This document shows, in pieces, positions 17,865 to 62,778 of a stretch of 64,000 nucleotides of DNA; within the stretch, counting starts at the first letter, position 1; each line of letters opens with the position of its first letter. This stretch comes from Pegea sp. RAD2-039. Lineage: Eukaryota; Chordata; Thaliacea; Salpida; Salpidae. A program made the position numbers and the translations under genes. Below the pieces are notes generated by a model that saw nothing but the letters and a program-made list of their open reading frames with translations, was not told the origin of the DNA and did not search any database. Location of the stretch: NCBI GenBank assembly GCA_034620365.1, contig JAQGEQ010000273.1, forward strand, positions 50,597-114,596, in the 5' to 3' direction.

Positions 17865-20115
17865 AATGCAAGTTCTTTGTGAGCTATCAGTTAAAAAAAT
17901 GCCTAGCGAAAAGCTAGATATAAAAACAAAGTTTAAAATAAAAAGACTGAAATATATTTATATTGATTTTAAATATAAAAATACTTGTCTTAGTCATATT
18001 TATAAATTATTTATCTAAAAGTTTGTCATTTACTGAGTCAAAACTAACACAATACACCAAGATTGACTTTCAAAAACAATTTTGAAACAAAATAAATGAA
18101 AAACAAGTTTTATCTGTAAGATGTTTATATTATGAAATGGAGATATTATTAAATATAATTTCAAAGTTATTAAAAATAAATTACAAATAATAAATTTTAT
18201 CATGAAAATAAGTTTTGACTTTAATATTTTTAACTTTTGGTCAAAGTCTTAATAACACTTTTTCTTAAATGAAACCAAATATAAAAAAATCTTTCAGTTT
18301 ATAATTAATCAGTAAATTGACGCTTTTAAAAAATAAATACTTAAATAAAAATTGTTTATTTATAAAATGTAAACATTTTTCAAATGTTGTTAATACATAT
18401 TTAAACAATCTGAGACGATTTATTAATAATTATAAGAATAAAGTGAATTATTTCACTTTTATTATCATCCAAGAATTTTTATAGCCTTAGTAAAATTGTT
18501 TGTTTAATATCATTTACCTAAACTAATACCTGTATCAATATAAGATTGATATTATTTGAAATCTTAATATTTTATTACATAAAACTTACATCATAAATTA
18601 CAAAAAATATAAAAAGATTAAAAAAAATGACCTTCAATTCAAATAAGTCAAAAAATTGACATTAAAAACTGAAAATTAAACTTCTTGATTCTAAAACTTT
18701 TAAATTTGTTTATATTTAGGTTTCAGAAAAAACAAAAGACCATTTCAAAGGGTTATAAGACATCTATAAATAGAATTTAGATGAAAAAGTAGAATTTTTC
18801 TGTCTCAAACGTGCTGACTTAACAAATATAAATGAATGAAAGTACACGAGGCATTGAAACAATAATTTGAAAATTGATAAATCTTTGGCGCAGCTAGCGA
18901 TAACTGCTATAAACCATAAATGGAAAGAATCTTTACTAAAATGTAATCAAGCACAACAGATTAGATCTACTAGTGGTGGCTAACTTATCATCAAAATCAT
19001 GATTTTACTGATATAACTTTCAAATCATTCAATCTTCAAGTAAATTTAAAGTTTTAAAGTCAAGAATATTTAAATTGAAAAACTTAAATTAATATTTTAT
19101 ATTAAATATCTTGTAAAAAAGCTTTAATACCGCTACAAGGCATTTGTAAATTTACAACTTCTAACTATCTGGAAACGAAGCTACTGATGTATATTTTAAC
19201 ATAAAATAACTTACTGTTACACTAGTTTCAAAATGCTCAGCTAGTAAACTGTTCTATAAATTTCTAATATTCAATTCCCTTTTTTTACTATCTTGAGTAA
19301 AAGCCAAATTAGCTCATTTTTATGTCACAAGGTTTTCTGTTAATGATACATGAATTATATATAGACTTATAAATTTTCTTTTATGATAATATACAACTTT
19401 TAAAATCTTTTTTATTGTAAAAGTTTCTAAAAATATGATAAACTAAACAGATGAAAATAGTTTAATCTATTTATAACATATTCAAATTATTCCTAAAAAT
19501 TCTTACTGACGTAACCTGTAGCTTATTAACAAATACAGTTTTAGTTTTAATAAATTTAATTTTATAGAATTTTATCGTAAACTTCAAGTTCTATGACAAT
19601 TTATAAAAGTAAAATAAATACTATTTTCTAAAAAACTTTTTCCCAAAATTACATTTATTGAAAACATTTGCAATAAACAGAAAAACTAAAGAATAAAATT
19701 GATACAAAAAACATTTCGTTGATATCAGACAGATTTATAAAAGTTAAGAAAAACTCTCTAACAAAATTAGATGAAATATATAAAATAATCAGTCAGAAAA
19801 TAACTTGTAGGTAGCTAATAAAAAGGATTGACGATTTGTGTAAAAAATTCATCTGTCAGTTTAATATAGAAACTAAAATAATATTGAAAGTTGAGGAACA
19901 GGTAGCAACTGTTTAATTCTCTTACAAGACTTCATCATCTTCAACTGATTTTACAGATTTTGATCTGCGAGGAAAGAAGGATTTTTAATATTGAAGAGAG
20001 ATGTTGATAAGAAGATCAAATCACTTTTGTTGGTTGTTTGTTGAAATCAAAATCTCACTCAGAAGATTACCTGACGGTGAGACCTAAATATTAAAAAAAA
20101 TTAAACTTCAAATAA
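17865..20115. other. AT-rich intergenic DNA between dynein and myosin
   Basis: No gene is evident. It should hold the myosin promoter (just right of 17,864) and the dynein 3' UTR (left of 20,116). One candidate coding bit is the minus-strand frame ending in TAA at 19,922, about 19,922-19,965, which reads RSKSVKSVEDDEVL. It could be an alternative last exon of the dynein gene, because it follows a plausible acceptor and is acidic like the end of that gene. I could not make the splice phases agree with certainty. Confidence 0.45.
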
Positions 20116-23100
20116 TTAAAAAGTTGTAAAAACCTCTTCAGAATCCGAATTCTGCTGATCAGTAAATAAAGATTGATCTTCATCTTCTGAGATTACAGCA
20201 GAGATACTGCCAGGAGTTGTGATGATCGCTTCACTGACATTTCCACTCAGTGAATTGATTTCAGTATCAAAGGAAGTTTGAGGATTTGAAGATAATCGAG
20301 GAAGACTTTCTTCATCAATTTCCAACGCTTCCGAAGAAGAGAAAGCATCTTTGGATTGATCCACAATAATCTCTATATTAACTTCATCAGCTTCTTCTTC
20401 TTCTTCTTCTTTAACGGACTCTTTTTCTATATCTTTCGGTTGTTCATCTTCTTCTTCTTCTTTTTCTTCTTTTTCTTCTTCTTCATCTTCTTCAGATTTC
20501 TGCACATCTGAAGTTGATCCCATCGTAGTATCACTTGTGTCTTCACTTCCGGTCACTACATCTAAAGAAGATCTTTTAACTGCTTCATTTTTTTCGGCAT
20601 CTTGATGAAGAGCAAATTCTTCAGCTAATAAAAGATCAAAGATCAGAAAAATCTTTTCACTTGAAGACATACAAACCGGATGCTTTTAAGATCCTTGCTC
20701 CGAATGTTGAAGATGAAAGTCTTGTATAGTTTGTGATCCAATCAAGATCTTTAATTGGTTTGTACCCCAGCATCTTACGACTGATCTTAACAACAGGATC
20801 AAGAGATTTTTGAAGAGTTATAAAAGTCTTGCAAGCAACATCCAATCCATTTAAAGAGCAAACAGGGATTTGGGAAGATGCTGGGATTTGAACGATGCAG
20901 ATGAGATCACGCTTAAACTGAAAACCAAATTAATATTTTGAAAGGAAATAATTTCAACCAACTAAATTGTTGTAGATTGAAATGTTGACTCTGTGACACT
21001 CATAACTATCTTCATCTCCAATAAAATAAGGATAGAGATATATTGGAGGTAGCTCTTCTTGTAATCCTGATAACTCTGTCATCACTAACTCACCTTTGAT
21101 AGGATTAAAGATATTTTAGAGGTGGAAGTTAAAAGATCTTTCAACCTGAGTCTTTATCAAATCTTCCATTAGTGATAAATGATTGGTTGATGTATATACC
21201 AGCTTCTTGTTCAATGATCTCACTTCTTTTGCATCCAACAACACATCGAAGTTGTATCTGTGTTCGAGAGTTGGAGGTTGTTCTTATTTTAAAGACTTAA
21301 ATTACTTGATCAATATTGATGTCATGTAAAACAGCTTTTTCTTGACACAAAGCAATTATCAAAGAAGCCGGATTCGATAAACCACCGAGCCAAATACCTT
21401 CCAAGTTCCCCTTTAAACAAATAAATTCGATCAAAAACTTCACTTATCTAAAAGTTTGTGAAAAAAAACCGAGAAAATTGAGTAGCTACCATAGGTGTGT
21501 TGTTTAGTGATGGTACCATTCCAGTTTTAATCCATTTTTGTCGTTGCTTGTATCTATTATTTACATCATTTAACCAACTTGTAAGATTGAGATTTGATGG
21601 ATAATCAAATGTGTGGCTCCTAAACAAATTGATTTAAAAACGAATCAAAAGTAAACGTGTCTCACCATTTCAATGGGACTTCATCTTCAATTAAACACTC
21701 AGCAATTTCAAGAAGATCTGAACTTAGATTAAAGTTTTGATAAGTAAATAATCTCTTCTTTAATTCAAATATGTCTTGTTTAGCTTTACAAATGCGTCGA
21801 TTGTATAAAATACATTCTTGCAACAAAACAAACCTTAAAAAAATGGAATTATGTTTTGATTGTGAGTTGAAGTTCACTTACCCAAGTGATTCTGGCATAT
21901 GTAGCTTGTCAGGGCGATTCACACTACACACAGAAGGTGCGTGGTACGGGAAGTTGAATCTAGCAATCTCTTGATCATGTAATCCAATCTCAAGGATTGG
22001 AGGAAGTAAGTCGGAGCAAAGATCAAGTGAAGATTGAATTGATGATAAAGTTATTGTAACTTTATGAGAGGTTGATCTCAATTTTGTTTCTAATTCTAAA
22101 AAATAATTTCAGAAAATTTCAGATTTATTTTTTGATGCCTGCCTGGTTTCTGGATGACGTCAAATAGAGTCTTTAAATCTTCCGAAGACTTTTTACTATT
22201 TCCTTGTATCTTCCAGTTAGTAGAAGAAGAAGGAAGACACAAGACATCATCAAACTGATCTTCACTCATTGATCTTTTAACCCAAAGAGCAACATCTGAG
22301 ACATAAATTTGAAAAAAAGATTTTAGGGATCAACTAGAAGAAGACCTTTTGATTCAACATCCAGAGGAGGAAGCAGGACACAAAGATCATTCATGACGAT
22401 GGATTGATCTTTATCTGATGATATTTGATCCCAAACTTCATTGAAGCATCTTTCAATAAAAATCTTCAAAAAAAAAGTCTTTTAAATCTTTAAAAACTTC
22501 ATCTTTTTTGGGATCAGATCTTTAAATGATCTTCAAGAGATCTTTACCTTATCAAACGTACTGGATGCAAAAGTGATGTAGACATCTTTCAAGACACTCA
22601 GCAAGTTTATATCAGAAGCTAAAAGAAGATTTTTAGAAAGATATGAAAGATTGAAAGAACCAACCAATAGTGATGAAGTAACCAGCATGTCTTAGTAACA
22701 AATCACTGATTGGATAGAACTCGACGTTTCCATGCCAACTGGCGTGTTGTCGTGAGTTCACGATTGAATGACAGAAACATAAAGCAAAGAAAGATCTTCG
22801 ACAAAAAGAGTCATCAAAATAAGGAAGATAGAATTGCGTCATCTAGTGATGAAGATCTTGTAGAAGATGAGTTTAGAAGTTGAGATGAACTTACTAAATT
22901 TACAGCTGATGCAAGATAGTTGTTGAAAAAGAATAAAGTTGGTTTGCTCTCAGCTAGATGACTTTCAGGACCAATCTAAAAGAAAAGAAGATTAAAATCA
23001 ATCTTTAAAAGAGTCTTTCCACCTCTTTTGTTATAATTTGGATCAAAGAGTCTGCAGATATCTTATAAAAGTTTCGAGTTAGACTTCTAGGGACTTTTTC

Positions 23101-26100
23101 ATCACATACAGATGTAAACCAAATCATAAAATTCTCTTTTTTTAATTTTTCTTCTTTAAAATTTCTCTCAATAAATTCCAATTCAGTTTGGATGATGTCA
23201 TAAAACTTGCTGAGATGAGGAAGACACTTTAAAGATGTTCAAGATCACTATAAGACTCACGTGTTAGATGCAAAATGAAGTCCTGAGATTAGGAGCCAGT
23301 TATCTTCATCAAATGCTTTTCGGATCAACTTACAAACATCATTTGGTTGAAAATCAGAAAAATTAATTTCTTCAATTTCAACTTTTTCTCTGAAAAAATC
23401 CCAAAATTGAAATCTTCAAATTTCTCTTCTTGATGACGTCACCTCTCAGAAAGTCTTCGGATGAGTTGAAGGACTTTTATGGGAGCTTGTGGGAACGAAT
23501 CAGGATCATTTGAATCCGGAAGTAAGACTAAAGCTCCGGAGGTCAATCTGATGTCTTTTAATAACAGATCAACATCCATAAGATCAGATCCTGTGACGAT
23601 CTGATCAATAAAAGAAGAGATGAAAGATCAGATAAGATTTGATGAGTCTACAAACATGATGAAGACACGTTTTTGGGAGCTGCCGATCAATGTAGATTTG
23701 AAGAGCAACATCCAAACGATCTGATCTTAGAATCTTGATGAGGAGCAATTGATGAAAATCTGAAACTTCTTCTAAATCATCTTGAAGATCAGGAGTTGGA
23801 AGGAGCTGAAAATCAACATCAGATGAAGATCAAGAAAGATGATGACTTTTTCAACCTCAGGTCTTTCTGTACTCATCCACTGTTTCCAAGGATCAGGACT
23901 CTCTGAGATCCTAGATGCTAAATTTGTGAGTCTCCCTGGAAACGTTGAAAGTCTTTTTATGATCTTCCATCTCTCTTCAGATAACCACGGAGGACATTCA
24001 GGATCGTTTCCATGGTGATCTTCTTCATCAATCTTTTCATGAATCAGTATCAGAAGCTCTTCAAACGTGAACGGCTGAGACTCCAACTGAAACTCCGATT
24101 GAAGACTTAATAAGCTTAGAATGGTCACTAGGTGGCGATGTTTTGGTTGAACACTAAGAAGAAGAAGATTTGAGAAGATCAAGTGATGAAGATCTCAAAC
24201 CTATGATATAAATATTGAAAGACTCTTTTTGTCAAATTCTTTAAAATCTCTTTTAAATTAACAAATTGATAAGAAAGATCTTCAATTGAAATTGATTTAA
24301 TTTGAGGGATGATGACGTCATTTCCGGTGGGAACAAAATCTGCAAGCAAGTTAGTTAGTTGAAGATGTGGACCTTGAGGTGGTTGGGGACCTGTAGATTT
24401 GTCCACTTCTATTCGTGGACTTGAAAGAAAATCTAAAAATTGAAAGATGATGATGAGTTTCAACTTCTGTAAATTTCACCTTTTCGTAAGTTCCCGGATG
24501 TACTTCCTAATCTTAAATCCTCTCTTGTAGATGAAGATCTCTCTTCTGTTTGATCTCTACTTATCTTCTCGTCTCTTTCACTCTCCAAGATCACATCTTG
24601 TAAAGGAGCAAGGTCTTCAAGATTGATCTTTTCGACTTGATCACAAAACACCACAGTATCAAAAAGACGACCAAAAAAATTCAAAGTGATCTGTAGATGA
24701 AGATCATAAAGACTCTACAAAGAGATCCACGTCATCACCTGATAGTGGATGCTCAGAACAGCAACTGATTTGCATATAGAGTATAAAAGAGTTGATCTCA
24801 GCGCAATAGGGAAGAGTTCTTCGACTTCTTCATTTAATTTATTCAAAGAAACTTGAGTGGCGATCAAATCATCAGCAGTCTGGAAAGATCGGATCAAAAC
24901 TCATCTTCCTGATACCTGATCTCATCCTTACTTTGTTCTTCTTATCTACGATGTTCTTCAAAAAGCTAATCGAGTCTTCCAGCTTCTCTGCTGTCTTCTG
25001 GAGTCTTAGATGTTTACAGAGAATCACGTTGAGTCTTGAGATGATGAAACGAGTTTGCCGATAATTAGAAGCAATCAATTTGCGATCATTAAAAAGCTTA
25101 GGACGTAATCTTATCAAAGATCTTTTCAGGAAGTCCTCCTGTTGGATGCAAGTGATTAGTGGGACTCTAATGATGTTGATCTTTACTTGTAATGTTTCAA
25201 ATGTAGAAGAAAAATTTATTAAATTTGTTGATGAGATCATTTCTGGATGAAGAAGACTTGCATCTGATCTTTGTGTCTTTAGAATCAATCTGAAAGAAGA
25301 TTTAGATGATTTGAAATGAAATATTTTAGAATCAATTTACCGGAAGGAGTTCGGACACAAAATCCGTCGTTCTGAGAAGCGAATTATTGTCGAATCTTCA
25401 TCCGACAAGATCGAGTTACAGTGATGAAGAAGAGGATCTAAAAGACTCTTTGATGGAAGATCACAATTTCCAATCATCAAATTTCCCCCTGCAATCTCAT
25501 TTGTGGCAACCTCCGATACAAACAGATCTTCTACCTCTCATGATCTCTTGCTCAATCTCAGAAATCAGATTTTGATCAAGATCTTTCTCAAACTGAACAA
25601 ACGCAAACTTCTTCATCTCTCCCGCACACCAATCAAGTCCTACATCATCCTCATCTAGAAGAAGATTAGGTCTTTGCCATGATGACGTCATAATCGCCCC
25701 GTTTTGCAGCTGTTCGAGATGAAGTTGAAGTTAGTAGAAGTATGAATCAGGGTCACCTGGTAATGGGACACCCCCTTAGTGATCCACTGTTGGAAATTCG
25801 AGTTCGTCACTAGGAGCTTGATGATGCAGTTGACGTAGTCCTGATGACGTCATCAACGTTTGGTTAGTGGTTTGCTGATGTGGTTTGATGTACCTGGTAT
25901 CCATACATGTCAATATAAGGTAAGTTTGAAAGAGTGTAAGCGCGCGTTGATGTAGTCGAAGCATCTTCGTTCAGATCTTCATTAATTGACTCTTCTACGA
26001 TCAGAGAAAGGTCTGGATGCTGGTGATCTTGTGAAGATGCTGGATGCTGCTGATCTTGTGAAGATGCTGGATGCTGATTGATCATATGAAGATGCTGGGT

Positions 26101-29100
26101 GCTGATGATCATGTGAAGATATTGGATGTTGATCATCATGTGATGATGTTGGACTGATGACGTCTTTTACTAATGATTCATTAAGATCAGCTGGAAGAAG
26201 AAATGACGTCATGAAGGTAATCCACTGTTGGAAATTCGAGTTCGTCACTAGGAGCTTGATGATGCAGTTGACGTAGTCCTGATGACGTCATCAACATTTG
26301 GTTAGTGGTTTGCTGAGGTGGTTTGATTTACCTGGTATCCATACATGTCAATATAAGGTAAGTTTGAAAGAGTGTAAGCGCGCGTTGATGTAGTCGAAGC
26401 ATCTTCGTTCAGATCTTCATTAATTGACTCTTCTACGATCAGAGAAAGGTCTGCATGCTGATGATCTTGTGAAGATGCTGGATGTTGATGATCTTGTAAA
26501 GATGCTGGATGCTGATGATCATGTGAAGATGCTGGGTGCTGATGATCATGTGAAGATATTGGATGTTGATCATCATGTGATGATGTTGGACTAATGACGT
26601 CTTTTACTAATGATTCATTAAGATCAGCTGGAAGAAGAAATGACGTCATGAAGGTAAAACGCGATTCGCGTCATCTGACTCACTCGAATTTGCTTCTAGA
26701 ATGAAATTGATCAGGTGACCATGAACAGGATCAATCTCATCAAAGATGAGAGAGAAACCGCGATCTAAGATACATCGAGGCCATTCTAGAGTCAACATCA
26801 ACCTCCGGAATATCAAAGGATAAGCTCCAAGATAAGTTGAAAAAGCTGCGGCAATTGATGAAGATCCAATCAACCTTTCAAGTCGATCGTTGTAGCAATC
26901 TGACGAAATATTAAAGTTGGCGGGAATAGAGTGCGTGAAAGCCGGCAGAAGTACCAAGAATCATCCGATATCGTTCGTGTTCTTTGTAAAGAATTTTACG
27001 GAAATTTGCAGTAATATGAAGTCGATCTTCCATCTCAACAATCTTTTCTTCTTGAAGATTTTTGTCGGAAGTAGCAGCTTCAAATCCATCTGACATCTCT
27101 TTTAATCTTTTTTCTAAAGATTGCTTTTTACTCTCCAAAGTCTGAAGCTTTTCTTCAGCATCAACTGAACAGATTGAAAATAGTTAACCACCTAGCAACC
27201 GGTTAACCACCTAGCAACTAGTTAACCACCTAGCAACTAGCTAACCACCTAGCAACCGGTTAACCACCTAGCAACCAGTTAACCACCTAGCAACTAGTTA
27301 ACCACCTAGCAACTAGCTAACCACCTAGCAACCGGTTAACCACCTAGCAACCAGTTAACCACCTAGCAACCAGTTAACCACCTAGCAACCAGTTAACCAC
27401 CTAGCAACCGGTTAACCACCTAGCAACCAATTAACCAACTAGCAACCAGTTAACCACCTAGCAACCAGTTAACCACCTAGCAACCAGTTAACCACCCAGC
27501 AACCAGTTAATCACCTAGCAACCAGTTGACCACCTAGCAACCAGTTAACCACCCAGCAACCAGTTAATCACCTAGCAACCAGTTGACCACCTAGCAACCA
27601 GTCAACTACCTAGCAACCAGTTGATCACTTAGCAACTAGTTAACCACCTAGCAACCAGTTAACCACCTAGCAACCAGTTAACCACCTAGCAACCGGTTAA
27701 CCACCTAGCAACCAGTTAACCACCTAGCAACCAGTTAACCACTTAGCAACTATTTTTCAACAAACCGATTGAAATGGAAGTTTGTTTAACTTTGTTCTTG
27801 AGAGGATTAACTTTTTGTTGGAGAGTTTGATGATATTTCAAGACTCCTTCAACCCATTCAAATAACGCTCCTTAAAACATAAAGATCAAAAAGATGAAGA
27901 TCACAGAAGAAACTCTTTTACCAGCAGCTTCATTATTTCCAGATTTTTCTACCATCATCTTTTTCGAATGATTCTTATTTACAAAAGATTCTGAATTCTC
28001 AAAAGTAATCTGAAACAAATTAGTCCAGTCAGAAAGAAGTAGTTTCATCTCAACTACTTGATGAAATGGAAGTTCATCAAACGAAGATAACTCGTCGAGA
28101 AATCGTTCTATATTCGCCATTTGACGTTTACCGCCTTTATTCCACGTCAAATCTGTGTTGCTATTGGATGATTTTAAGATCAAAATCACCGAAGACATCA
28201 AATCTTCAATTTCTTTTTGAGGTCGTTGGATTGAACGAAATTCGATGATATCCTAAAAAATAATTTCATTCATAAAAATGATCGAGTCACGTGTTCACTG
28301 ATTTCATTTACAGTTTCATTCATAAAAACTATAGAGTCACGTGTTCACTGATTTCATTTACAGTTTCATTCATAAAAACTATAGAGTCACGTGTTCACTG
28401 ATTTAATTTACAGTTTCATTCATAAAAACTATAGAGTCACGTGTTTACTTATTTCATTTACAATTTCATTCATAAAAATGATCGAGTCACGTGTTCACTG
28501 ATTTCATTTACAATTTCATTCATAAAAGTTATCAAATTACTTGTTCACTGATTTCTTTCACAATTTTCTTCGTATCGGCGACGATAGCGGCTTTTTTAAA
28601 AAGAGCTTTTTCATAAGCGAGCTCATATTTAGGGAGGGACTTTTTCAAATAGTAAATCGTTTTTATTTGCTTGTTCACCGCCGACACCTATATCAATAAA
28701 ACCGAAAAAATAAATAAATTTTGATGAAGTATCACAAGAAACCTGTTTTTCTAAGATCACCATGTCCTGTCCAATTTGAGAGAGAAGTTTACAAATTCCA
28801 ATTTTATGTTCTTTTAAGACCTGTAGTAAAAATATTTTCAAATTTTTGTCAACTTTAGTAGATTTTTTTTCAAACTTTTTTTTCTTTATTTAAATCTTTA
28901 TAAAGTTTTTCTGCAATCAAATTTTCTCCTTCGATATTTTCAAAAGCATCTTTAATTTTTTCATGAGTGGATTTAATGACTTTTTCATGATGACAGTAAA
29001 TATTCGTAAAAGAAATAACATATTTTTCAAAAGTTTGATTTGTCACATATCCATTGACACTGTAATCAATTCACAAAACTATTTGATTTGTAAAAATCAC

Positions 29101-32100
29101 TTTCCAAACCTAAAATGTTGATTCTCTTGTTTCATTCTGATAGAAAGATGCATATCAGCTAGCAAATGTGAAATGTTCTTCCATTTTGTCATCTCTTCTT
29201 CAGATGAATGTTTTTTTGTTTTATATTTGAGGATGAGATACAAAGCATTATTAACAAGTTGGTCATGTGACCAATCGTTTATCATGATGACATTGACTCT
29301 TGCAAATAATGAAGAAAATTGAAAACTGTTTTCAACAAATGGTGCCCCTAAAATTTGATGATTGTTTTAAATAAAGAAGAATTTATATTCCTGATAAGGA
29401 CCTGTTTTAGAGAATAATAAAACTATTCTGATGTTCTTGACGACAGTTTTTAAAAAGAAGTCCCAAGCAACCTCTTTTGAATAGATTAATCCTGAAGAGT
29501 TCACATCACTTCTGAATGAATTTGAGATTGTGGTTTTTTCATCGGAAGTAAAAAGATGAGAAATCCTTTTCTGCTTCACAATCTCTTCTAATAAGATCAA
29601 GCAATCTTCAGAAAGATCACTAAATTTTCAGATCAGTTAGATATCAGCAAAATTAACAATTTAAATCACCTTGTATCTGGTAACAGTAAAATGATTTTTT
29701 GTTTTTTGATTCCAACTTTCATATAAGATTGAACAATAAATTTCTTGAAATGTAAAAATTTACTTTCATCTTCATCATCTTTATCAAGATTCGAAGGTGG
29801 AAGAGTAGATACCCGAAAACTAATCAAATGACCAACTAACAACAGATACAAGTAAAAAAAAACCCGAAAAAATTAAACTTTAAATCTTTCACCTAACTTA
29901 ACAATCAAAGATGATGAAACAGGGACCCCAGCTCCAGCTAAGATCACATGTGAGATCATATGAGGTCCTTGAAGAACTTTAGTTAATCTACAAGTCAACT
30001 TGATGACGTCATCAGTTAAATTTAAAGTCATTTGTGTTTCTATTTTGTTGTATTCCTGTAAATATTCAATGATGACGTAAATGATGAAGAAGTCATTTTC
30101 TTTTTACTCTTGTTGCTTCTTCTAATAATCTTCGGACTTTTTCAATCTTTACTGGTTTGTAGTTTAAATCATTTTCAGTAAACTTTGAATCAGATGCTTG
30201 AGTATCTCTACAAATCAAAGAGTGTCTTTGAATCTAAGATCTTCATCTGTAACTACATAAAAGAAACTTACTTCACAGAAGACACTAATCCACTTTCCAT
30301 CTCTTCAATACTACTAAAGATCGGTTGATGATGACTCATCACAATCTCCAAGTGTTTGTTATCAGTCAGATATTTACGAATAGAGGATGTTAGCTCTTGT
30401 AAGTATCTTTCCTTATCAACAGATGTTCCCTAGAAACTCAATTAGTTTCAATTGATCTTTAGTTTAGACTCACCATCCGTTTTCCATAAATCCAATCACA
30501 TTCATGCCTCCACAACATCAACAACTGCTCTTCCTCAATCTTTGGTGATCCCTTGAAACGAGTCAGAAGTCTTCGGAAGACTTTATCAAGATCATCTATT
30601 GCAAAGATGTAATGAGATCTCTCATATGTCTCTAAGTAGATTTTTCGGAGCCGTTCTTGAATTTGAATTGTTGTCTTCATCAAATTGTTCATCAAAATCT
30701 GGAGAAAATAAAAGATCAAAGACATTATAGGGATCAGATCCTCACCTCAAAAGACTTCTTCTCATTTTCAGGAAGATTTGAAGACATCTGGTTGGAAAAG
30801 AGACTCCTAAAAATTAAAAGAAGATCAGATAAATACTTTACAAGGAGCTCAATCAACCTAATGATCCTTAATTGACTCCTTTTAGAGGGATAGGGACACA
30901 TAAAAACAGCAAATTGCCGAAGAAAGTTCGCGCGTAATGACGTCATATCCGGTTTTGTAGTCGCCACATAAGTGACGTTCTTGATCTTTTGAAATTGATG
31001 ATTAATAGGATTGAGAACTCTTCCAGAATCCAGATGTTGCCGGATCAGTTCGGAGCAAGAGTTGGAGTCATCTACTCGACAAATATCTTTATCAAAGATT
31101 TTTTTCATCACGTGACTCACCTGAGCTTCGCGGCGCGCTGACGTCATCGATGATACAAAGAAGTCGTTTGTTAGCTGGAGGAGTAAAGACATCTGAGTGT
31201 CTCCATTCAATCTTCTTCTCGATCCTCTTCCAAAGATCACTCGCTCTCATCATCTTGTGACAATTGATGATGGCGCGCGGTAGACCTGTGACGTCATCAC
31301 CACTCAAAGCGTCCACACAGTTGCGGACCAGTCCACTTTTGCCACAACCCAATTCACCGACCACTAAACACGAATGACCGCCGCCCATCAAAGTGGTCAC
31401 GATGTGAGCCAGTTGACAAGTAGCTGTGGTTGGCACAAAACAGTCCTGGTCCGCATCCACAACACCAGAGACCTTAGGAAGACTTTGCTCCCAGCTGACA
31501 AAACAGCGTGTCTCAGGATTAATATATTGGCCCCAAATGTCCCCTTGATCCTCCGGGAAGACATCAGGCCACGTTTTCGACCACCAGGTGGCGAATGAAG
31601 CGCGCGACTCATCACTTAAGGTGCCGCCAAACGCCCAAAAAGCGGCAAAAGCCACGTAGCGCTGTTTTTCGTCATCAGTGACGTCATCAGGCACTGTCAG
31701 TTGCAGCAGACGACAGAAGGTGGTCGTCATGGCAACCACATCGACGTCAACAGCTTGTGTGAGTGGTTGGTGATTGGAATCACGTGATAGATGAGATGGA
31801 GTGAAAGATTGTTGGAAGTAAGCGATGAGGACTTCGAGGAAAGAGCTGGAAGATGATCCGATGCAGATCCGAAGATCTTCATTGATTGAATTCAACCAGT
31901 GATTAAAGATCAACCTCCACGTGATCTCTGCAAAGAATCATTAGAGGTGATGACGTGATATGACGTCATAATCACCTGATCCAGTGAAGTTGACGACTCC
32001 TAGATCAGCGACACTAGATGGAGTTAAAGAGGAAAGATCAGGAAGCTCCCAAATGATGCGGAGGTTCGTAGGGAGACGAATCCGGTGGTTGTTAGGGAAG

Positions 32101-35100
32101 CAGAACAATTGATCTGCATCATTATTGCTGTTGTGACGTAATAGACGCGCGATTAATGAGATGTTGTCGCTAGAAGCTTCTCCATCAAGTTGAAGTATGT
32201 TGATGATCGGTTTCTAGGGATTTAAAGATTTAAAGAAGAAGATGAGGTCAAAGATGAACCTCTAATTGATCTTCCTGCTCACAAAGATCTTCAAAAAGTC
32301 CTTGAAGAATTCCGCTCTTCCATCCCTGATTGAAAGAGTCGAAACATCCGAAAAGGTCCGAAGATGAAGAGTCAAGAGCGTTTAAATAAATCTACATCAA
32401 ATGAGTTAGAAGTTGGGATCAGATCATGGATGCAAGGAACCTTTTTGTGATTGACTTTGTATCCGAGTTGACGGATTGTTTGGAGGTAGAGACGGATGCA
32501 AGTTGACTTTCCACTCCCACAAGGTCCCACAACTACAACTGATCTCATGGATTCAGCGATCTATCAACCAATCAGAGATGAAAAGATGAGAAGAGATCAG
32601 ATGAAGGACTCACTTGGAGCAATTGAGCTGTTTTTGCCTGGAAGCTTTCAGATGCACTCAATTGACAGATCGATGTCGCGATCGCGATAGCAGCTTCTAC
32701 GTCATCAGTCTCGTTGACATCCGGGAGAAGTTTTGCTTCAAAAGGTCGGACATCCGGTTCATGAATAGGAATACTCACCTAGAAAATTAAAAAAAAAGTT
32801 TTTGGAAACACTTTTTTACGCATCAACAAACATGAGTGTTCATCATGTTGACACTGGATGTTGCTTGATTCACAGATGACTCCTCTGATTGATGATTGAT
32901 CCCAAAATCCACATCAGAGTCTGTAAAAAGATCCATAACAAGAGTGGAGATCATACTCTTTTCATCTTGATCTTTAATCCTCGGAGCAAGGATGTTTCTT
33001 AGAGATTGGGCAAGAGCTAGCTCCTCAACTTTCTTCACATCTTCTAAAGACTCACTGCAACATCCAATCTTAAAGAAGATCTTTAAAAGATCTTAAACTC
33101 ATCACTTGTTGATTTTATCTCTTAAATGTTCACTGATCATTGCATCCAAACCAATCCCTGCGCATTCAACCACGTGCTGAAGAAGTCTCGGGGACAATAG
33201 GGAGCTAACTTGCCCATATACGGTTGGAAGAGCTTTTAGATCAATTGAATTGAGGTCTAAAGATGTTGAGTTTAATATCAAAACTTTGAAGTGAAGATCA
33301 CTTGCTTTCAAGATACTTTTGTGTCTTACATGAAGACACAGTGGAATTTATCGTGTCAGAAAGTTGTTTGAGTATCCCAAGTTTATTTGCAAGCTCCTTG
33401 GCATTAGTGAAGCCTTGAGATAATAACTGAACCTCCAAAACTACTTTTGTATCTGGATTTAAAGGAGCTACAACCCTACAAAAAGATTTTATAAATAATT
33501 GAAGAATTTAAATCAAACAAACCTGAATTGTGATAAACATTCTCTACTTAGTTTTGTACCAATAGCCGGTGTCGGTAAGATGTTGCAATCAGAACGTTTG
33601 TTGATAGTGATGAAGCAAGCAAAGGAGGGATTAATTGAGATATCTTCTCCTAAAAGTGCCACTGATTCTTCTTTAGTACTAACCGCTTTTTGAACAACTG
33701 ACATAAGTTGAGTGACTACAGATATCAAACTAAAATGTAAAGAATCAAAGTTTTCTAAACAAATCCAACAACCACTTTCAATCAAACCAGTGAAAATATC
33801 ACCTAAATTCAAAAAGAGTTGAAAATATTAAAAAGTTTTCAAGATATTTCAAACTAACTGATGATTGATAAGTTAGTGGACTTGATACAAGGAATATTAT
33901 ATAAACATTTTCCAAATTGTAAGGACACTTCATCAATTATTTCAGGTCTTTTGATATTATTACTCATCAAAGCAATCCCATTATTAAAATAAATCGTTTG
34001 ACAAATTGCTAAAATATTTCGATCACAGTTTAAGCTTAGTGTATGTCTATAAACAGAAATAAGATTAGATGAAGTTGAAAGTGTTTGAATGAATCACCTG
34101 GTAGCTGAGCCTTGATATTCATAACCATAATTGAAATTAAAATTTAGGATATTTAACTTAACTAACATTTCTTCACAATCATAAATATGTTTCAACTTTG
34201 ATTTCCATTCAAATAAATCCTAGAAAAAAAATTGTAGAAAAAAATTTGAAGTTGAATAAAAGAAATTATTTCTAACATTTTCTAATCCTCTAGATTTTAT
34301 AATTTCTTGAATTTCATCACAAATGTCTCTCTGTTGGGCTAGAAGTGAGATTAAACCTGACAGTTTCTTTATTTGAGAAGGGAATAAAAGTATCTTTTCA
34401 CTTTCATCACTCTAAATAAGTTTTGATTACAAAGATTTCTCGTCAAGATTTCCTAATAGCTCAAACCTTATTATCTTCATATGAATTTATAGAAGAGACA
34501 GAAGTTTGAGGTCTTTCTTCCGGAGGAGCTAATGGAGTCTTGTATCTTTCTCTACTTATATTTTGAGACATAATTCTGTATGTGTCTGAAGAAACAACTA
34601 AATTTATGAAACTTTTTATTCATTTTCATTTTACCTTTTGTATCTTCATTCAAAATTGAAATATTTGAATTCAAAGACCTAAAAATTTTTTTGTAGAATT
34701 CAGTTATTAAATCAAAGACTTTTTGAAATCAGTGAAATTATTTTTGAATTATTTTTAATTATTTGTCAGCTTCAAATTTGTTCTTTCAATTTTCATGCAG
34801 ATCTTGGAGTAAATATTTTGAAGTATTTTTATCTTTATACCGATTTTTGTTAGAAATAAAAGTCCTTGTTTTTCTTCTTTTCAAATTCTTTATCTTTCCA
34901 TAAAAATTATTATTCCTTAAAGTATTTGTGAGTTAAGAAATTAAAGATTTCAAATTTTAAGATTAAATTTCAGATTTGTAACAAACTACCAACTTTATTG
35001 ATAAAGAAGAAGCAGTTCGCGATTCCGTAAATGAATAATCTTCCTCGGATTTTCCATTCTTCCTGAATTCTTGAGAATTTTTTTCATCTTCAATTCCCTT

Positions 35101-38100
35101 CGACAACAAAATCAATAATTTCAAACATTTTCTCGAACATCTGAACCTTTAACATCTTCACAGCAGCATCCAATGAATCTTCGATTATTTTGAAAACGTT
35201 TTCAATTTGTAATTGACAATCAGAAGCTTTCAACGCGTTCTCAACCAAGATATTCATCTAGAAGCTTTGATTTAATCACTTCAAACCGACTTTGTCACTT
35301 ACTTTTATTTTTGTAGCGAGTAAAACAATCTGCATCGGATTATGCAGCATCCACGATATGTCTTTGTTAGAAATAGAGCTCCCAATTGATTGAAATAAAT
35401 CTTTAGCGATCTCAGAAGACACCTGTGAGTAGATGATGTTAAAGAGATGAGATAGACGCAAGAGATGTACATTATCTTCTTTAGGACTAGATCTTGCTTC
35501 TGATGAAGATGCTCTTTGAGATGCAGCACTTGATGGTCTACTGATCCGAATCCTAGATGCTCCCGCACTCCGGAACTCTTGTTCAACTTGAGCAGGTCTT
35601 GGAGGATTTCCAAGAGCAACATGAAGAGTTTCCTGAAGACATAAAATTATCAGATGGATTTTAAAGATGTCTTTTTACCTGGATGCTAGTCTGAATTGAG
35701 ATGCTCAGTTTAGAGAGCCAATGAACAAGAGGAAGATCATATGGAAGAGGTTGATTGAAGACTGTTAGCTCCCCACAAGGACTCCTGATCCCGATCACTT
35801 CAAATCTCTTCTTCTTTTGGGATGTTTTTCCACTCCCTGAATTAGGAGTAACTTCTTGGAGTTCCAACTTGCCAAGATTCAGAAATATTTTCCATAAAAA
35901 TCTAGAAAATGAAAAAAAGTTGAAAATTTCTAAAAAATTTTTCATTTTTCTGATTACTCGTTGACTTTAGAAAGATCAGACTCAAAAGAGATCACTGTAA
36001 AAAGATCTTCATCTGAGAGGAAGTAGAAACGCGAGAACTGACGTCGATAACGCTCCAAATTACTCAACAACTTCTTATGACACCTTTTCAATTTGATCTC
36101 CATCTTTTCAAGGACTTGAAGTAATCCTTAGAAATGATCATTTGAAATTGGGATCACTTTAGATGAAGATGAAGACCTTTTCTGGAGCAGTTTTGGAGCA
36201 CATTATTGTTCTTTTCAGCCATCTTCATCAAGACACGAAAGTCTTTACTGACTACAGCGAACGTATTTGCTTCATTTGGTAATGAGACTCGAATATCTGA
36301 ATCTTTAAAACGATCCAAAGTTGAAGATGAAGATCAGGAAGATACTTACTTGAATAAATTTCATTTAATTGAATCCAATGAAGCTGAACCTTATTCCACA
36401 GCTTCAGAACAATCTCTACGAGCTGTAAACTCTTCTGCCACTTATTTACTTCATCTTGGAACGATCCCACTGAATTACTACCTCTGATCCGAGTCAGCTC
36501 CATCTAATGAGAAGACACAATAATCGATTATCCAATCAGAAATCGATATTTTACTTGATGATGTTCTAAATCATTAAGGATCTGTGGGACATTATGAAGG
36601 AGGAAGATCGGACTTGCATCATCTACAAGATTCTTTAAACTGACTGGAAGAGAGAAAGAAGAAGTTCTTCCACCTCTTGAGATTGATCCAGATGATTTGC
36701 TTCCATTAGTGAGTCTGCAGATGAAGAGTCAGATCTGTTTTGAACTTTGACCCTTACTTACTTATCAGTTACAGGTTTTGAGATGCTAGTTGCAAATCCA
36801 AGATCGTTACTTGTGATTCCACTTTCTACATCTTCTTCTTCTTCCTTCTTAACAGATTTTAAATCCAAATAGATCTTCATCTCAAAGACTTTTCCTAACC
36901 ACACCTCCTCACAAGTCTTCAGTGAGTTCTCAATCGTCAAATCTGATCAATACTTCTTGATGAGGATCAGAATCTCTTGAGGAGTCTTTACCTTTCACTG
37001 CTCGCTGCACAATCATCTTCACCTCTTCTTGGTTCCTCTGAAGACCTAAATCCATGATCTCCTTAAGAGTCATCTTCTCTAGATTCTCTTTTTCTGGTTG
37101 TATTCCTTCTGAATCTCAAAGTTAGATGAAAAAGAAGACACAAAGAAGATCACCTGAGACACGAGCAACTTGCTTCCAGTGTCGAGTCCTCATCGCATCA
37201 TGATTTAGGTCTTTAAGAAGAGGGATGTTCTCTTCAATGCAATTTACGGAAGAGATGATCTCATCATAAACGTCCCAATCATCCACCTTAAAAGATGAAG
37301 ATATGATCTTTGAAAGAAGATCAAAAGTATCTTACTCCGGGAGGTAGAAGCCGGATCATCTCTCGCTGCTTCTGAAGAGATCTTTGGAGAGGATGTATTT
37401 CAATTTCTCGCCATTTCTTGCTCTTCCATAACTCTTGATCTTCATCTATAATCTCTTTTTGATGCCAAATAATCTTAAGATTCTTAAGATCATGTTGATA
37501 TAGAGATAAGATGTGAAAGTTCACAACTGAAGATTGTAGAAGATCCTGAAGATGAAATTGATGAGATTAAGGTCTCTAGATGAAGATTCAAGGACTTGAA
37601 GTTGGATTAAGTCTTGAGCTTCTTCTTGAATATCTTTTAGTCGATCTTCAAATATCTCAATGAGTCTCAAAGCTTCTTCCTTTATACAATCTCTAGAAAA
37701 GACCTTTGAAGATCTTAAATCTTCATCTAGAAGATTAACTCGGACACTAAAGCTGTTCAGATCACAAGTGATACTCTCTGCTTCCTCCTGAAGATTTCTG
37801 ATGATCAGAAGATGCAGTAAACAGAAGATTCTTACCTGAATCCGGGGTCCAAGTCTTTGCTTTGCCAACGAAACTTTTGTCTTCAATTGACTCCATCGAT
37901 TCGGAGAAGACACAAAAAGATCCCTGATCTCATCAGATGGATGCTCCCCGTACTTCTCCAACATCTCAAGAGTCTTCTTCATCACCACAAATCTGTGAAT
38001 CAATCAAGTCACAAAGATCATCCAAAGATGACTCCCAAACCTCGCATCCATGTCTTCCTGCTCCACTGAGATCTGATTGAAGAGTCTCATCATCTTCATA

Positions 38101-41100
38101 AATGAGATCGTGTCTTTCTCTTCTCCCGTGATCGAATCAATTTCCGGTTCCATCCGATCCAGAAAACTCCCAATCTTCCTCAGACTCGATGTCAACTTTT
38201 CAAACAAAATCATCATCACGTGATCATCTGATCTTAAGACTTACTTGATTGATGAGGAAGTTAGTGAAGATCCAAATCCACTTCCCAGCAAACGTCATCA
38301 CAACCTTCGAATTAAATCTTTTCAATCTGAATCAAATCGGATCTAGGGAACCTCTTTAATAGGGCGGAAGTTCAACAGAATCCATCCAACTTCAACAACA
38401 TCCGGGAAGTTCTTCATTTTGTCATAAGATTGTTTAAAAGTTGAAATTTCTTGATCGAAATCACTTAAGGCGGGAAATGCAGCGTTTTGATTGGACGATT
38501 TCTTTTCACGATTCTGATTCGGTGACAGAAAGATCTTTTCTGTATTTTCAAGGATCATTTGATCAGGAGGAAGAAGATGGGACCTAAAATTCAAAGATGT
38601 AGAGATTGGAGATGATCCGACTCAAAAATCACTTTGAATTGTGTTTGGAGTTAATTGGAGATGACTGTAATGAGTCTGGAAAAGGTTTGGCTCTCAGAAA
38701 GTCTTCAAAAAACTCCTCAGCATCCCGCATCCACATAAATCTAAACAACAAAGATGATGTCATGATGTGATGACGTCATCATCTACAAACCTGTAGTCAT
38801 CAAAAAATTGGATTTTTTCTTTACATTTTCTTAAACTTTTTTTTAAATCATTTTTTATTGTTTTGATTACTTCCCAGATTTCATCATCATCTTCAAAGAC
38901 CTCTTTGTAGTTACAAGTCGGTTTCTAGAGATCATATCAATCAGTAAGATCAACATTTGATGAATTGACTGACTGTGAGTTGAACGACGAATGTTGAACG
39001 ATCAACAAATTGACCCAACCAATCCAAAACACATCTTTCAACACTCTCAAGTGATGAGGTACAATACAGAGGAGGATTAAACTCTACATCTTCACCGATA
39101 AGTTCTACTCTTACCTCCAACATACATCTCTACAGTTTGAGATTTTTTAATCTTAAAAATTCTGGTCCCAACTAACCTCAGGGGCACCCTGCCAACATTC
39201 ACTTATACAACTCAACATGGTGTCCAAGCTCTTTAAGATGGTCCGTTTCAGTCCTGATGAAACAACGCTGTTCATCTTGTTGATGTAGAGCATCCAAGCT
39301 GGAGATGATGAATTAATCTCAAGTTTCTGAAGAAGATAATCTCAAAGATTTTTTAAAGATACTTTAAACTTTTTATACCTCAAATGATTGACTCAATAAT
39401 TGATGAATTCTTCTCGAATTTGGGATCAATTTGCTTTTTAATTGATTGCTAAAAAAATTTTGACGCTCCTGTAAATCTTCAAGAGTTTGAATTTGATGAT
39501 TGAGACGATATTCAGTGAAAATATCAAAAGAATCTAAAAAATAATTAAAATTGAAACTGAAACAAAGAAATTTGAAAATTTACCTTCAAACCAGCGAGTG
39601 GTCAACATTTCAACTTCACACCAGTTGTGATGAATAATTGACAAAACATCATAAACATCATCTATTACTATCGAATGAAAATCTTCAATAAAATCATCTA
39701 TATGAGGAGCTAGCCAATTAATTTCTTCAGCTCCATAACTAACTAAATCATCAACCTAAAATTTGATCCTTTTACTGATTAGTAATTCTTAAATTGGATT
39801 ATTACCTGCTTCAATTTACTCTCAAATAACAAACTCTCATGATTTTGAATTGAGTTAATTATTTCATTATACTTGGTAACTATAAGATGAAGACGAATTG
39901 AGTTTTTTATCAGAGATTTACTATCCACAGCTCGAAGTAAAGCTCTTATAGACGCAGGAATATGAATCTATTTTGAAACAGTTTTAAAATTAGTGATTTG
40001 AAAAGATTAAAGTTACTTTGAAATGATGTTTTTTGAAATAATGAGCTTCACGAAGTGTTTCCAAAAGTTTTTTGTTTAAATTAACTTGAAGTTGTTTATA
40101 TTTTGAGGAATTAATTTTGTCATCTTCATAATTTTGATCCCAGCAAAGTAAGGATTGTTTAAGATTCGATCTGAAGATAGATAAAGATGAAGAAGATGTA
40201 GGAATCTTTTTTCTCTACCTCAAATCGAGAACAGAATCCTGACTCCAATCACGAAGCAGATCTTGATGACGTTTATCTAAATCCTTCATCAGATCTTCAT
40301 GAAGACTACGAAGTCTCCAACCAAGATCACTCTCCAGCAAATAAGAAGAGACTTTTTTTAACTTCTTCATCGGGAAGTTGATCCGATCTTTCAAGGACAT
40401 CACCTGATTCAAAGACTCGAATCTGTCATCTAGAAGATGAAAGAGTCCTCACCCATATCACTGATCCGACAATCCACGGAAGATTAGGATGATTCGGAGG
40501 ATTTAAAGATTGATCTTGAAAGATTTTTTGAACAGATTTTAATTCTGAGATGAAATTTTGGAGCATTTTCATATTTTCATCAAAAAGTTGATTTTGAAGA
40601 GCTTCTCGTGAAGCTATTCCTTCAAATACCTCCAATATTCTACATTCAAATCAAGATCATTTTAAAGATCTACAAATTTCCTGATTTACTTCAACTGTGA
40701 CATCATTTCCGGACAGAACTGAATCGAAGTCTTGATGACGTCAGCAAGACGCTTCTCGAGGTCTTTGATGATCGTTCGAAACGTGAAAAAAGATTTTTCA
40801 AAACTTGATGATTCATCAGTAGAGATGACGTCATGATTTTCTTCAGTGAAATCTTCGATAGTTTGAAGATAAATCTGAAGATCAGAGGCTTTTAAGAAGA
40901 GTTTGAAAGATTTTGTTCTTCACTTTGTGGATTTCCACAACTTCCAAATTCAAAGTCTTGTTTCCGGCTCCTCCGATACGAGCTGCTTCAGCTAAACTTG
41001 TAAAATGTTGAGTTGTTTCAACTAGATCTAAAAGATCATTGCATCTTTCAACAAATCGGTTCAAATGATTGAAACAAGATTGATTACGAGCTGGCCACTG

Positions 41101-42950
41101 ACATCCACTCCAACCATCATCCACCACTAATTTCAATAAATCAAGCAATCATCACCAACTAGTCACTATTTCACCTTGTATATGGTGTTTTTGAACCATC
41201 CACTGGTCGAATCGACTTGTTTCGTACATCTTTGTCAACGGAATTGATTTCTCGATGACTTTGAATGACTTTGATGACTTATTTTTCTTCTTTTCGTATA
41301 AATCTGCTTTTTCCTACAAAAATTTCAACTAATATTTGCTTCTGTAGTGAAGTTTGAATACTTTAAAGTCAAGATAAGTTCCCCTAAAAGCCGCACAAAG
41401 TCTCAGCGCATCTTTCAAATCTTTATAAGATTTTAAAGGATCTTCAAAAGGGTCCTGATCCACTAGAACACGAGCCCTAGCCACGACCTTAAAGATCAAA
41501 GTTTAGAAGATGCAGATGAAATATTTAGTTTTACTTCATTTGAAACCATTTCTAAAAGATGAATAAATGTTTGAAGTTGGTGGTAATGACTTGAGTGTTG
41601 CCAAACTAATAAAATTGTTTGTAATAAAGGTGGAAACGCTGCAAAAAATGATTATTATTTTCATTTTATTTTCAATAATTTATTTTACTTTTCAATATTT
41701 CATCAACATCAGCATATAAATGGAAATCTTCTAGCCAAATGGTGACAGTTTTAAATGTCGTCAAAATCATTTTTGATTTTTGTAGTTCAACTTCCACTTC
41801 AGTTTTAACTTCTTTAAATGTTTGGTAATAAGGACTATTTGCCAGAAACAGTTTTTCGATTACTTCTACTGTGATTGGTTCTAAAAAATTGTTTTAATGA
41901 TTTTGTAAAAGTTTATAAAAGTTTTTATTACCTTCAAGTTGTTTGTTTACATATTCTAATTGGTAAATATAATCATTCCATTTTTGTAACTCGTGTTCAG
42001 GACGAACCAACTCCTTATCAATTTGTCGAATATCTCTATTAGTTGAAAAAAATTGTTTAAATTTCTATTAACCAATCAAAACTGTTCAAAATTTTCTATA
42101 AAATTGGAATAAAATTTATTAAACTAACTGAGTGAACTTGACTTGTAGCAACATTCGAATCTGTTTTGTCCAACTAATCACAACTGATTCCAAAGTATTT
42201 ACAACTGAAATTTGTCTGTTTTTGTTCTGGGATATTTCAACTAAAACATCCATACAAGGAGATGCAAGTTTTACCTGAAAATTTGATTCAATTTAAACTG
42301 AAGAAATACTTTTTAAAAACTTAATTTAAACATTTATAAGTTAGACAGTTTGTAATTTACAATCACAAACTTTTCCTCTTGTAAGTCCTTCTACAGATTC
42401 AAGATTATTAATCAGCTTCTGAAGTATATCCATCAATTTATCAGCAGTCATCCCATCTTCTGTATTTTGAACCAAGCTTTCATCAGTACAGAGTAAAGGA
42501 AGATACAAGTCCCTAAAATTTGAAATAAGTTGAATTGAAAAGTATCTTTTGTGTAAACCTGATATATCTATTGCTAGAATCTACTGAAGGTTTCCAATCA
42601 ATACATGATATTGCTTCTGAAAAATCACTTGAATGAAGCTGTGGTCCAGTTTTTAGAAAGCATAGACACTTGGTGAAATTCTAAAGAGTAAATAGTAATA
42701 AATTTCCGTTTTTATATTTGTGAATAATAGAAACCTTATGAGGCATTGAAAGTGAAACATTTAGACTAGATGTTTGTTTCTTTTGAAAGGAATAAACAAA
42801 TAAATTTTGGAGGTTCTCATTTGAAAAGAATTCTAAAAAGATTAATCTCGTTTCTTCCTCACTAAAAAGTAGTTTTAATTCATCTGCTCGTGGTCGTAAT
42901 GAGGTTGAAACTCTAGTTGAAATCCATTTTAATTTATCTTCAGTTTCCAT
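20116..42950 (-). CDS. Divergent dynein heavy chain with degenerate AAA1 and AAA4 (many exons)
   Basis: A microtubule-motor heavy chain. ATG at 42,950; the first exon resembles the N-terminus of axonemal beta-type heavy chains. Order on the minus strand: tail (42.9-38.6 kb), linker (about 38.6-35.0 kb), AAA1 (about 34.15-33.5 kb, with YGYEYQG and NPSFACFITIN), AAA2 with P-loop GPCGSGKST (32,501-32,527), AAA3 with P-loop GELGCGKS (31,332-31,358) and Walker B CIIDDVSAP, AAA4 (about 30.1-29.4 kb), stalk coiled coil 1 (29.3-28.5 kb), microtubule-binding domain (28.25-27.9 kb), coiled coil 2 (27.85-27.0 kb), AAA5 (26.96-25.5 kb), AAA6 (25.3-22.6 kb) and C-terminal domain (22.3-20.65 kb). A Glu-rich extension ends at the stop at 20,116. 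AAA1 lacks both Walker motifs and AAA4 lacks Walker A. Introns are mostly 45-60 bp. The family is uncertain: a DNHD1-type heavy chain or a lineage-specific axonemal paralogue. Exon edges were read by eye. Confidence 0.9.
20380..20510 (-). repeat. GAA/GAG-rich low-complexity coding repeat
   Basis: The plus strand is nearly pure TTC/CTT triplets. On the coding (minus) strand this gives two runs of Glu with some Lys, inside the C-terminal extension of the dynein gene. The frame stays open throughout. Confidence 0.85.
25782..26657 (-). repeat. Tandem duplication of about 438 bp inside dynein AAA5 coding region
   Basis: Two near-identical copies lie head to tail: A (about 25,782-26,219) and B (about 26,220-26,657). 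Each holds an exon encoding a His/Gln-rich repetitive loop ending in YIDMYGYQ, a short intron, and the start of the next exon (DYVNCIIKLLV through FQQWIT). In copy A the second exon continues into the conserved AAA5 sequence; in copy B it is cut off at the duplication edge. Copy A carries one extra base near 26,080 (GATTGATCATATG against GATGATCATGTG), which breaks the loop exon. Confidence 0.85.
26440..26590 (-). repeat. Coding minisatellite, His/Gln/Pro-rich (copy B; shorter version in copy A)
   Basis: Imperfect repeats of about 27-30 bases based on GATGCTGGATGCTGATGATC. The coding strand reads as repeated QHPASSHDH-like units. A matching but rearranged array occurs in the duplicated copy at about 26,010-26,150. 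Repeat number and phrasing differ between copies, as expected from slippage. Confidence 0.8.
27180..27752. repeat. 19-bp tandem array (about 30 copies) in an intron of the dynein stalk
   Basis: The unit is close to GTTAACCACCTAGCAACCA, repeated about 30 times with scattered substitutions (GG, TAG, CAG at the joint; later copies with TTGACC or TTAATC). It fills the intron separating two exons of stalk coiled coil 2: the exon reading LFEWVEGVLKYHQ ends just right of it, and the exon starting DAEEKLQTLESKK begins just left of it. Confidence 0.95.
28255..28560. repeat. 50-bp tandem array (about 6 copies) overlapping a dynein exon-intron junction
   Basis: CACGTGTTCACTGATTT recurs at a 50-base period (CACGTG at 28,288, 28,338, 28,388, 28,438 and 28,488). 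The rightmost, most diverged unit (28,505-28,560) is the real junction: the exon's last bases GAAATCAGTGAACAA (exon end at 28,541) and its donor GTAATT. The array lies in the intron just before the microtubule-binding-domain exon. Confidence 0.9.
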
Positions 42951-62686: not shown

Positions 62687-62778
62687 GTGAGTTTTTGAAA
62701 TAAGTATTTTACTTTTGGTGACTATTTTAAGCTTGTTGTAGTCTACTTTCAGCTAGATATTTTTATATCTATTAATTC

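Follow-up and report, generated by a model that had tools for sequence, protein, structure and literature searches.

A dynein heavy-chain gene of the salp Pegea sp. without AAA1 nucleotide motifs and with a tail most like those of outer-arm beta chains

Can a full-length dynein heavy chain be retained when AAA1, the site whose ATP hydrolysis is treated as the step driving dynein, has lost its nucleotide motifs? The question is raised by a gene in a 64,000-nucleotide stretch of the genome of Pegea sp. RAD2-039 (assembly GCA_034620365.1, contig JAQGEQ010000273.1, positions 50,597 to 114,596), referred to here as the window, which corresponds to C370:50597-114596 in a genome of 105.7 Mb and 387 contigs. 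Hydrolysis in known dyneins takes place principally at AAA1, and AAA2-4 are regulatory; under the action of ATP at AAA1, the gap between AAA1 and AAA2 closes, the linker bends and the stalk tip is set free, as described in PMC7215579. Analysis of the window confirmed the loss of the AAA1 nucleotide motifs in an otherwise recognisable dynein, the tail of which is most similar to outer-arm beta chains. Coordinates given for this gene are window positions on the minus strand.

The single dynein heavy-chain gene was placed at 20071..42663 (approximately 42.7 to 20.1 kb, both ends uncertain) by a splice-aware gene finder, written for this analysis with ten dynein paralogues from this genome as its training set, together with Pfam matches and a shuffle control. 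The working ab initio model consists of 89 exons, 88 introns and 4,864 codons, and includes two exons added by hand where homology revealed that one had been missed: the linker-end exon at 34277..34411, which is in frame, and an AAA4 exon at 29402..29619. The last tiny exon of the model (19501-19515) is not trusted, and at one setting the finder fused neighbouring genes onto the dynein. The gene strand scored 448, whereas the plus strand and the reversed and complemented sequences all scored 0, and eight shuffled sequences gave 0 in seven cases and 10 in the eighth. As GT-AG ends and freedom from stop codons are imposed by the finder and are weak proof alone, it is these strand and shuffle controls that carry the weight for the stop-free path.

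Pfam domains were found in the order DHC_N1, DHC_N2, AAA_6 (AAA1, 1.5e-39), AAA_7 (AAA3, 4.8e-25), MT and Dynein_C in the model as it stood before the two hand edits. Their approximate positions are 39737..42200 for the tail, which contains the DHC_N1 dimerisation and docking region (5.4e-64) and is of outer-arm beta type by PDB search, 35900..36612 for the best DHC_N2 stretch of the linker (1.3e-53), 26781..28784 for the diverged stalk and microtubule-binding tip (MT, 3.9e-09), and 20963..21917 for the C-terminal domain (Dynein_C, 7.9e-31). Dynein_AAA_lid and AAA_lid_1 also scored above the Pfam cut-off and DYN_lid just under it (26.9, cut-off 27). No AAA4, AAA5 or AAA6 model was matched in the Pfam scan of the protein, and these domains were recognised by alignment to the paralogues. 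Thus, tail, linker, AAA ring, stalk and C-terminal domain follow one another as in a dynein heavy chain, and the full-length architecture described in the first-pass annotation of this sequence, with tail, stalk and C-terminal domain, was borne out. An acidic, serine-rich exon past the C-terminal domain (20134..20624) would form a C-terminal extension if spliced on and otherwise lies outside the gene; reading through towards it without splicing meets a stop shortly after 20677.

Inside the gene, at 25894-26670, several hundred bases that include one exon and a 27-bp minisatellite are duplicated in tandem; only one of the copies may be used. Further minisatellites have units of 19 bp (27182-27750) and 50 bp (28262-28566), both within or bordering introns of the dynein model, and of 26 bp (45391-45764).

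In AAA1, alignment to the canonical dyneins of the same genome is nearly ungapped and sets GPAGTGKTE opposite MSNNIKRPE at the Walker A position (33941..33967), and CFDEFN opposite CLENFD at the Walker B position (33744..33761). Both replacements had been read from the unannotated sequence at closely similar coordinates and are now located in the spliced model, as are the flanking landmarks YGYEYQG at the start of AAA1 (34109..34129) and NPSFACFITIN on the sensor-I strand (33600..33632), where the asparagine is kept and the GYAGR that follows it is lost. A genome search with AAA_6 gave at least 79 matches, grouped into at least 18 loci, and GPAGTGK[T/S]E and CFDEFN are both present in all 16 canonical dynein loci. 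The Walker A and B motifs of a force-producing dynein are both absent from AAA1 of the window gene. One of the canonical dyneins, C40, has GPAGTGKSE at this site, with S in place of T; its AAA3 Walker B aligns poorly, perhaps through a fault of the model.

Among 62 AAA1 positions invariant over 13 aligned canonical sequences, the window gene retains 28, made up of 7 of the 26 inside the named nucleotide motifs and 21 of the 36 outside them (nominal Fisher p 0.02). This motif-biased loss is not special to the window gene, since it is similar in another divergent dynein of the genome, C262 (9 of 26 and 24 of 36), which keeps the P-loop lysine. AAA1 is nevertheless, narrowly, the best-kept domain in identity to the beta paralogue C83 (26.8%, as compared with 25.8% for AAA2, 25.9% for AAA3 and 23.2% for the tail).

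A hidden AAA1 exon is unlikely. The introns beside the Walker A exon measure 51 and 56 nt and leave no room for one. Introns in this genome are very small, with a median of 53 nt among the 660 predicted in the ten dynein paralogues. No match to G, 2-5 residues and GK[STR], or to [DE]E[FLIV]N, was found in the six frames of 32601-36000, so that no unseen exon with a normal Walker A was revealed by pattern. The segment SGSGKTS in a linker exon (35840-35820) escapes the scan pattern, lacks the first Walker A glycine and lies outside AAA1.

The loss exceeds that described in the first-pass annotation, since it also involves AAA2 and AAA4 of this gene, and a second gene shows a similar loss. The AAA2 P-loop is kept (GPCGSGKST, 32501..32527), as are the AAA3 P-loop (GELGCGKSG, 31332..31358) and the two aspartates of the AAA3 Walker B (CIIDDVSAP, 31131..31157). 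The arginine of AAA2 in the SR pair serves the AAA1 site. This pair, present in 12 of the 13 aligned canonical sequences (the thirteenth has a model gap), is AD in the window gene, which reads SSVADLGVVN at 31989..32018 in place of ATVSRCGMVY or similar; the arginine that AAA2 supplies to AAA1 is therefore absent. At the AAA4 P-loop position the gene reads GAGVPVSSS (29909..29935), and this P-loop is lost. The AAA4-loop arginines near AAA3, which would face AAA3, are likewise replaced at the aligned positions.

To which class does the gene belong? The tail is the most informative part. Among all PDB chains, 14 entries matched the tail at E 1e-10, and the nine best, which score 217 to 108 bits, are outer-arm beta chains (the next entry has 78.6), including those of Chlamydomonas (217 bits) and Tetrahymena (152.5), DNAH17 (139) and DNAH9 (108). 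Seven of the nine are labelled beta or DNAH17/DNAH9, four of these being near-identical Tetrahymena entries; the remaining two, which carry just a putative label, group with beta chains in a separate PDB search. Against paralogues of the genome, the score of the tail is 207 bits for the beta chain C83 and 124 for C57. The class of C83 (DNAH9/DNAH17) and of C10 (DNAH5) was checked in the PDB, and those of the other paralogues are our own assignments, guided by the trees. The best match of the tail is thus the outer-arm beta type (DNAH9/DNAH17), as judged by sequence comparison; it is not of the outer-arm gamma type (DNAH5, DNAH8, Chlamydomonas gamma).

The tail, linker, AAA1, AAA2-3 and AAA4-stalk parts each score highest to one of the beta paralogues C83 and C6a, narrowly so for AAA1 (81.0 versus 78.1). 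In a motor tree lacking the divergent dynein C262 (C262:154000-169999, a third such gene besides the window gene and the second one described below), the beta placement was best, with a Shimodaira-Hasegawa-like approximate likelihood ratio (SH-aLRT) support of 95.7 and a bootstrap of 66, and gamma, inner-arm and C57 placements were rejected at 0.05 by the approximately unbiased (AU) test, but cytoplasmic and DNAH10 placements were not, so that the motor tree is a weak guide to the class. With C262 included, the long branches of the window gene and C262 join (99.1/72). In tail type, domain order and best scores from tail to AAA4-stalk, the window gene resembles an outer-arm beta chain (DNAH9, DNAH11, DNAH17, Chlamydomonas beta); it differs from one in the loss of both AAA1 Walker motifs, of the arginine in AAA2 and of the P-loop in AAA4, in the few introns shared, and in an identity to C83 of 16 to 27% by domain.

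A genome search for a second copy or allele gave 13 matches, nine in the window gene itself and four at 30 to 33% identity; as far as this search shows, the gene is single-copy. Recent duplication from one of the three beta genes was rejected, as few introns are shared and no close copy was found. A search of viral contigs for relatives gave one pattern match and confirmed no relative.

The second dynein, in which the AAA1 motifs also seem to be lost, lies at C245:396428-417210 and was found by searches with AAA_7, Dynein_C and DHC_N1, besides the AAA_6 loci. It was read in part (5.0 kb and 1.8 kb), and both DHC_N1 and Dynein_C are present. At AAA1, the Walker A position reads GFAVIGQGEETISCLA, with four residues missing in the alignment, and the Walker B position reads GCWASLEKLD. 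The AAA2 and AAA3 P-loops are intact (GSVGKGKTS and, after one hand-set splice, GERGSGKSC). The AAA1-AAA3 reading, for which open exons were chosen, has no stops, whereas the two remaining frames contain 70 and 71; the shuffle control applies to the window gene.

A 215-residue tail piece of C245 was compared with the PDB, and the best 9 of 30 entries are of the gamma/DNAH5 class (120 to 86 bits), with Chlamydomonas gamma at 120 bits and DNAH5 at 96; the next entry has 69 bits and beta chains 53 at most. Of these nine, four are near-identical and two are labelled only putative; one is labelled CFAP57, yet it is the second-best match of C10. The tail piece is thus of the outer-arm gamma type that the window gene lacks. 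The best PDB match of the C245 motor is DNAH5 (138), barely over DNAH2 (133), and the AAA1-AAA3 segment scores best to C10 (162, with 150 to C1a). The two genes score only 66 to 68 bits to each other over this segment, as compared with 162 for C245 and C10 and 175 for the window gene and C83, and a common subfamily of dyneins with dead AAA1 is disfavoured by these scores. They do share GCW..LE..D at Walker B, and they group in the tree of the three divergent genes. AAA1 may have been lost in the two genes either independently or jointly.

An animal outer arm contains one beta and one gamma chain. Ordinary outer-arm chains number three of the beta and three of the gamma class in the genome (the gamma chains C23 and C6:3.31 Mb were classed by eye from AAA1), to which are added one beta-type and one gamma-type chain with lost AAA1. 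We favour, at a little below even confidence, the explanation that the window gene is an old, fast-diverged relative of outer-arm beta chains (DNAH9/11/17 class) whose product docks or tethers without an AAA1 power stroke, possibly within a beta-gamma pair; the anatomy, the motif loss and the likeness of the tail are observed, and docking, pairing and function are inferred by us from the tail type and the precedent of motorless mutants. According to PMC12338079, the core of multi-chain dyneins consists of two chains, DHC_N1 forming part of the interface that joins them, and outer arms cannot do without the beta and gamma tails; in the Chlamydomonas mutants oda4-s7 and oda2-t, which have no beta or gamma motor, respectively, arms still assemble owing to the retained tails. 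Both mutants are also treated in PMC11496786. The assembly of arms in these mutants indicates that a docking tail combined with a non-stroking ring is workable. The likeness lies in a tail able to dock without a working motor, which for the window gene is a prediction; the difference is that the motor domain is absent in the mutants, whereas in the window gene it is present with the main site disabled.

If so, the tail of the window dynein would still dimerise and dock on the doublet microtubule, like the tails of the motorless beta and gamma mutants. ATP would no longer open and close the AAA1-AAA2 gap, with neither a power stroke nor ATP-driven release, and the ring and stalk would serve as a cross-bridge or spacer, either fixed or under the control of AAA3. 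The expected role would be holding, spacing or braking, perhaps gated by AAA3. The likely partner would be the C245 product, with its gamma-type, DNAH5-like tail piece and similarly lost AAA1, and one of the active gamma-type chains could serve instead.

Several observations weigh against this assignment to an outer-arm beta relative with a gamma-type partner. The between-class tail score of C83 and C57 (228 to 230) exceeds that of the window gene and C83 (207), the tail also weakly matches Pfam DYH2-5-8_CC (28.1 bits, cut-off 27), a coiled-coil model named for DNAH2/5/8 and unsuited to a beta chain, and the AAA5-6-C part scores best, if weakly, to C10 (22.8 bits). Cytoplasmic (AU p 0.39) and DNAH10 (0.11) placements of the motor were not rejected, and in a tree with the window gene, C262 and C245 the three cluster next to the cytoplasmic dyneins (96.2/96), which we take for long-branch attraction, a real clade being the alternative. 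Exactly shared introns are few, no more numerous than between classes (4 of 54 with C8, 3 of 74 with C83, none of 53 with C6a), as compared with 5 for the between-class pair C83-C57 and with 29 and 21 for the beta pairs C83-C6a and C83-C8; within two columns, 5, 5 and 3 are shared with C8, C83 and C6a, respectively, against shifted-null means of 1.0, 1.7 and 1.4 and maxima of 4, 6 and 5. Such low counts point to an early divergence or to frequent gain and loss of introns. As to C245, the gamma assignment rests on 215 residues, the finder at its strictest setting skips the Walker A exon, a longer piece scores best to C249 (170.8, with 159.9 to C10), and the motor tree prefers the cytoplasmic class (gamma AU p 0.27).

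A more specific possibility, to which we give appreciably less credence and which we consider somewhat unlikely, is that the window beta chain and the C245 gamma chain form a complete outer-arm-like heterodimer, both having lost AAA1, independently or jointly, and kept AAA2 and AAA3. Such a dedicated non-stroking arm would work beside ordinary outer-arm chains, at certain doublets or in certain zones of the axoneme, as a brake, a placeholder or a cross-bridge that is either static or gated by AAA3.

It is unlikely that the window gene is a decaying paralogue that has no function, whether or not it is translated, and on which selection is relaxed. Decay would agree with the great length of its branch (2.7 to 3.1 substitutions per site), the loss of catalytic motifs, and the minisatellites and tandem exon copy inside the gene; yet a stop-free spliced path of about 4,800 codons persists despite this divergence, with none on shuffled sequences or other strands, the AAA2 and AAA3 P-loops are retained, and so are the 21 of 36 AAA1 invariants outside the motifs.

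The first-pass annotation had named DNHD1 as the obvious relative, a view weakened by the outer-arm beta type of the tail and by the presence of C262 as another candidate in the same genome. DNHD1 has been reported as an orphan, perhaps becoming a pseudogene (PMC8754002), and as a protein of 4,753 residues predominant in the sperm flagellum (PMC9916431). That the window gene is the orthologue in this lineage of this sperm-flagellum dynein, called a ghost gene, is doubtful. Like DNHD1, it is an orphan, strongly diverged and full-length, with a product of similar length, and its few shared introns suggest an old split. Against this, its tail is closest to outer-arm beta chains, and its AAA1 is lost, whereas a hydrolytic ATP binding site in DNHD1 is mentioned in PMC9916431. 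The comparison with DNHD1 is by published description, and no chain named DNHD1 is among the PDB matches listed.

C262 is at least as good a candidate for DNHD1. Its AAA1 keeps Walker A (GCSGIGKTT), reads CFDHAE at Walker B and has a long insertion; the inserted segment and the residues that follow Walker B may be DNHD1-like. No DHC_N1 match was obtained at C262 in the genome search, and in a tree without the window gene it joins the inner-arm dyneins (87.6/71).

We consider it improbable that the window gene product is still a motor with ATP turnover shifted to AAA3. The AAA3 P-loop and Walker B aspartates and the AAA2 motifs are intact, as are both P-loops in C245, but AAA1 is the principal hydrolysis site in known dyneins (PMC7215579), the arginines of the AAA4 loop directed towards AAA3 are replaced, and the AAA4 P-loop is gone. 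An artefact of assembly, splicing or alignment concealing a normal AAA1 is very improbable, for although the model is ab initio, hand-edited twice and read from genomic DNA alone, a near-ungapped alignment passes through the lost motif, the flanking introns are short, no Walker-like pattern was found in the six frames of 32601-36000, and neither a second copy nor an allele was found.

Motor-dead arms occur in mutants. If the outer-arm explanation is true, a retained full-length chain with dead AAA1, perhaps as a beta/gamma pair, would be a natural version of such arms and would allow one to ask what an arm contributes other than force, such as spacing, drag, docking or gating. There is also a bearing on the orphan dyneins, DNHD1 among them, which may not form one group. 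No report of a dynein or outer-arm chain with dead AAA1 was found in the open-licence literature searched.

Downstream of the dynein gene and on the same strand, a myosin gene was recognised by eye at 14214-17902. A 113-bp unit is repeated approximately 11 times at 62776-64000 and reaches the end of the window. In the window and the dynein loci, 337 kb in all, there are 259 occurrences of the palindrome TGACGTCA, approximately 65 times the first-order Markov expectation, a few of them being counted twice as some of the sampled loci overlap.

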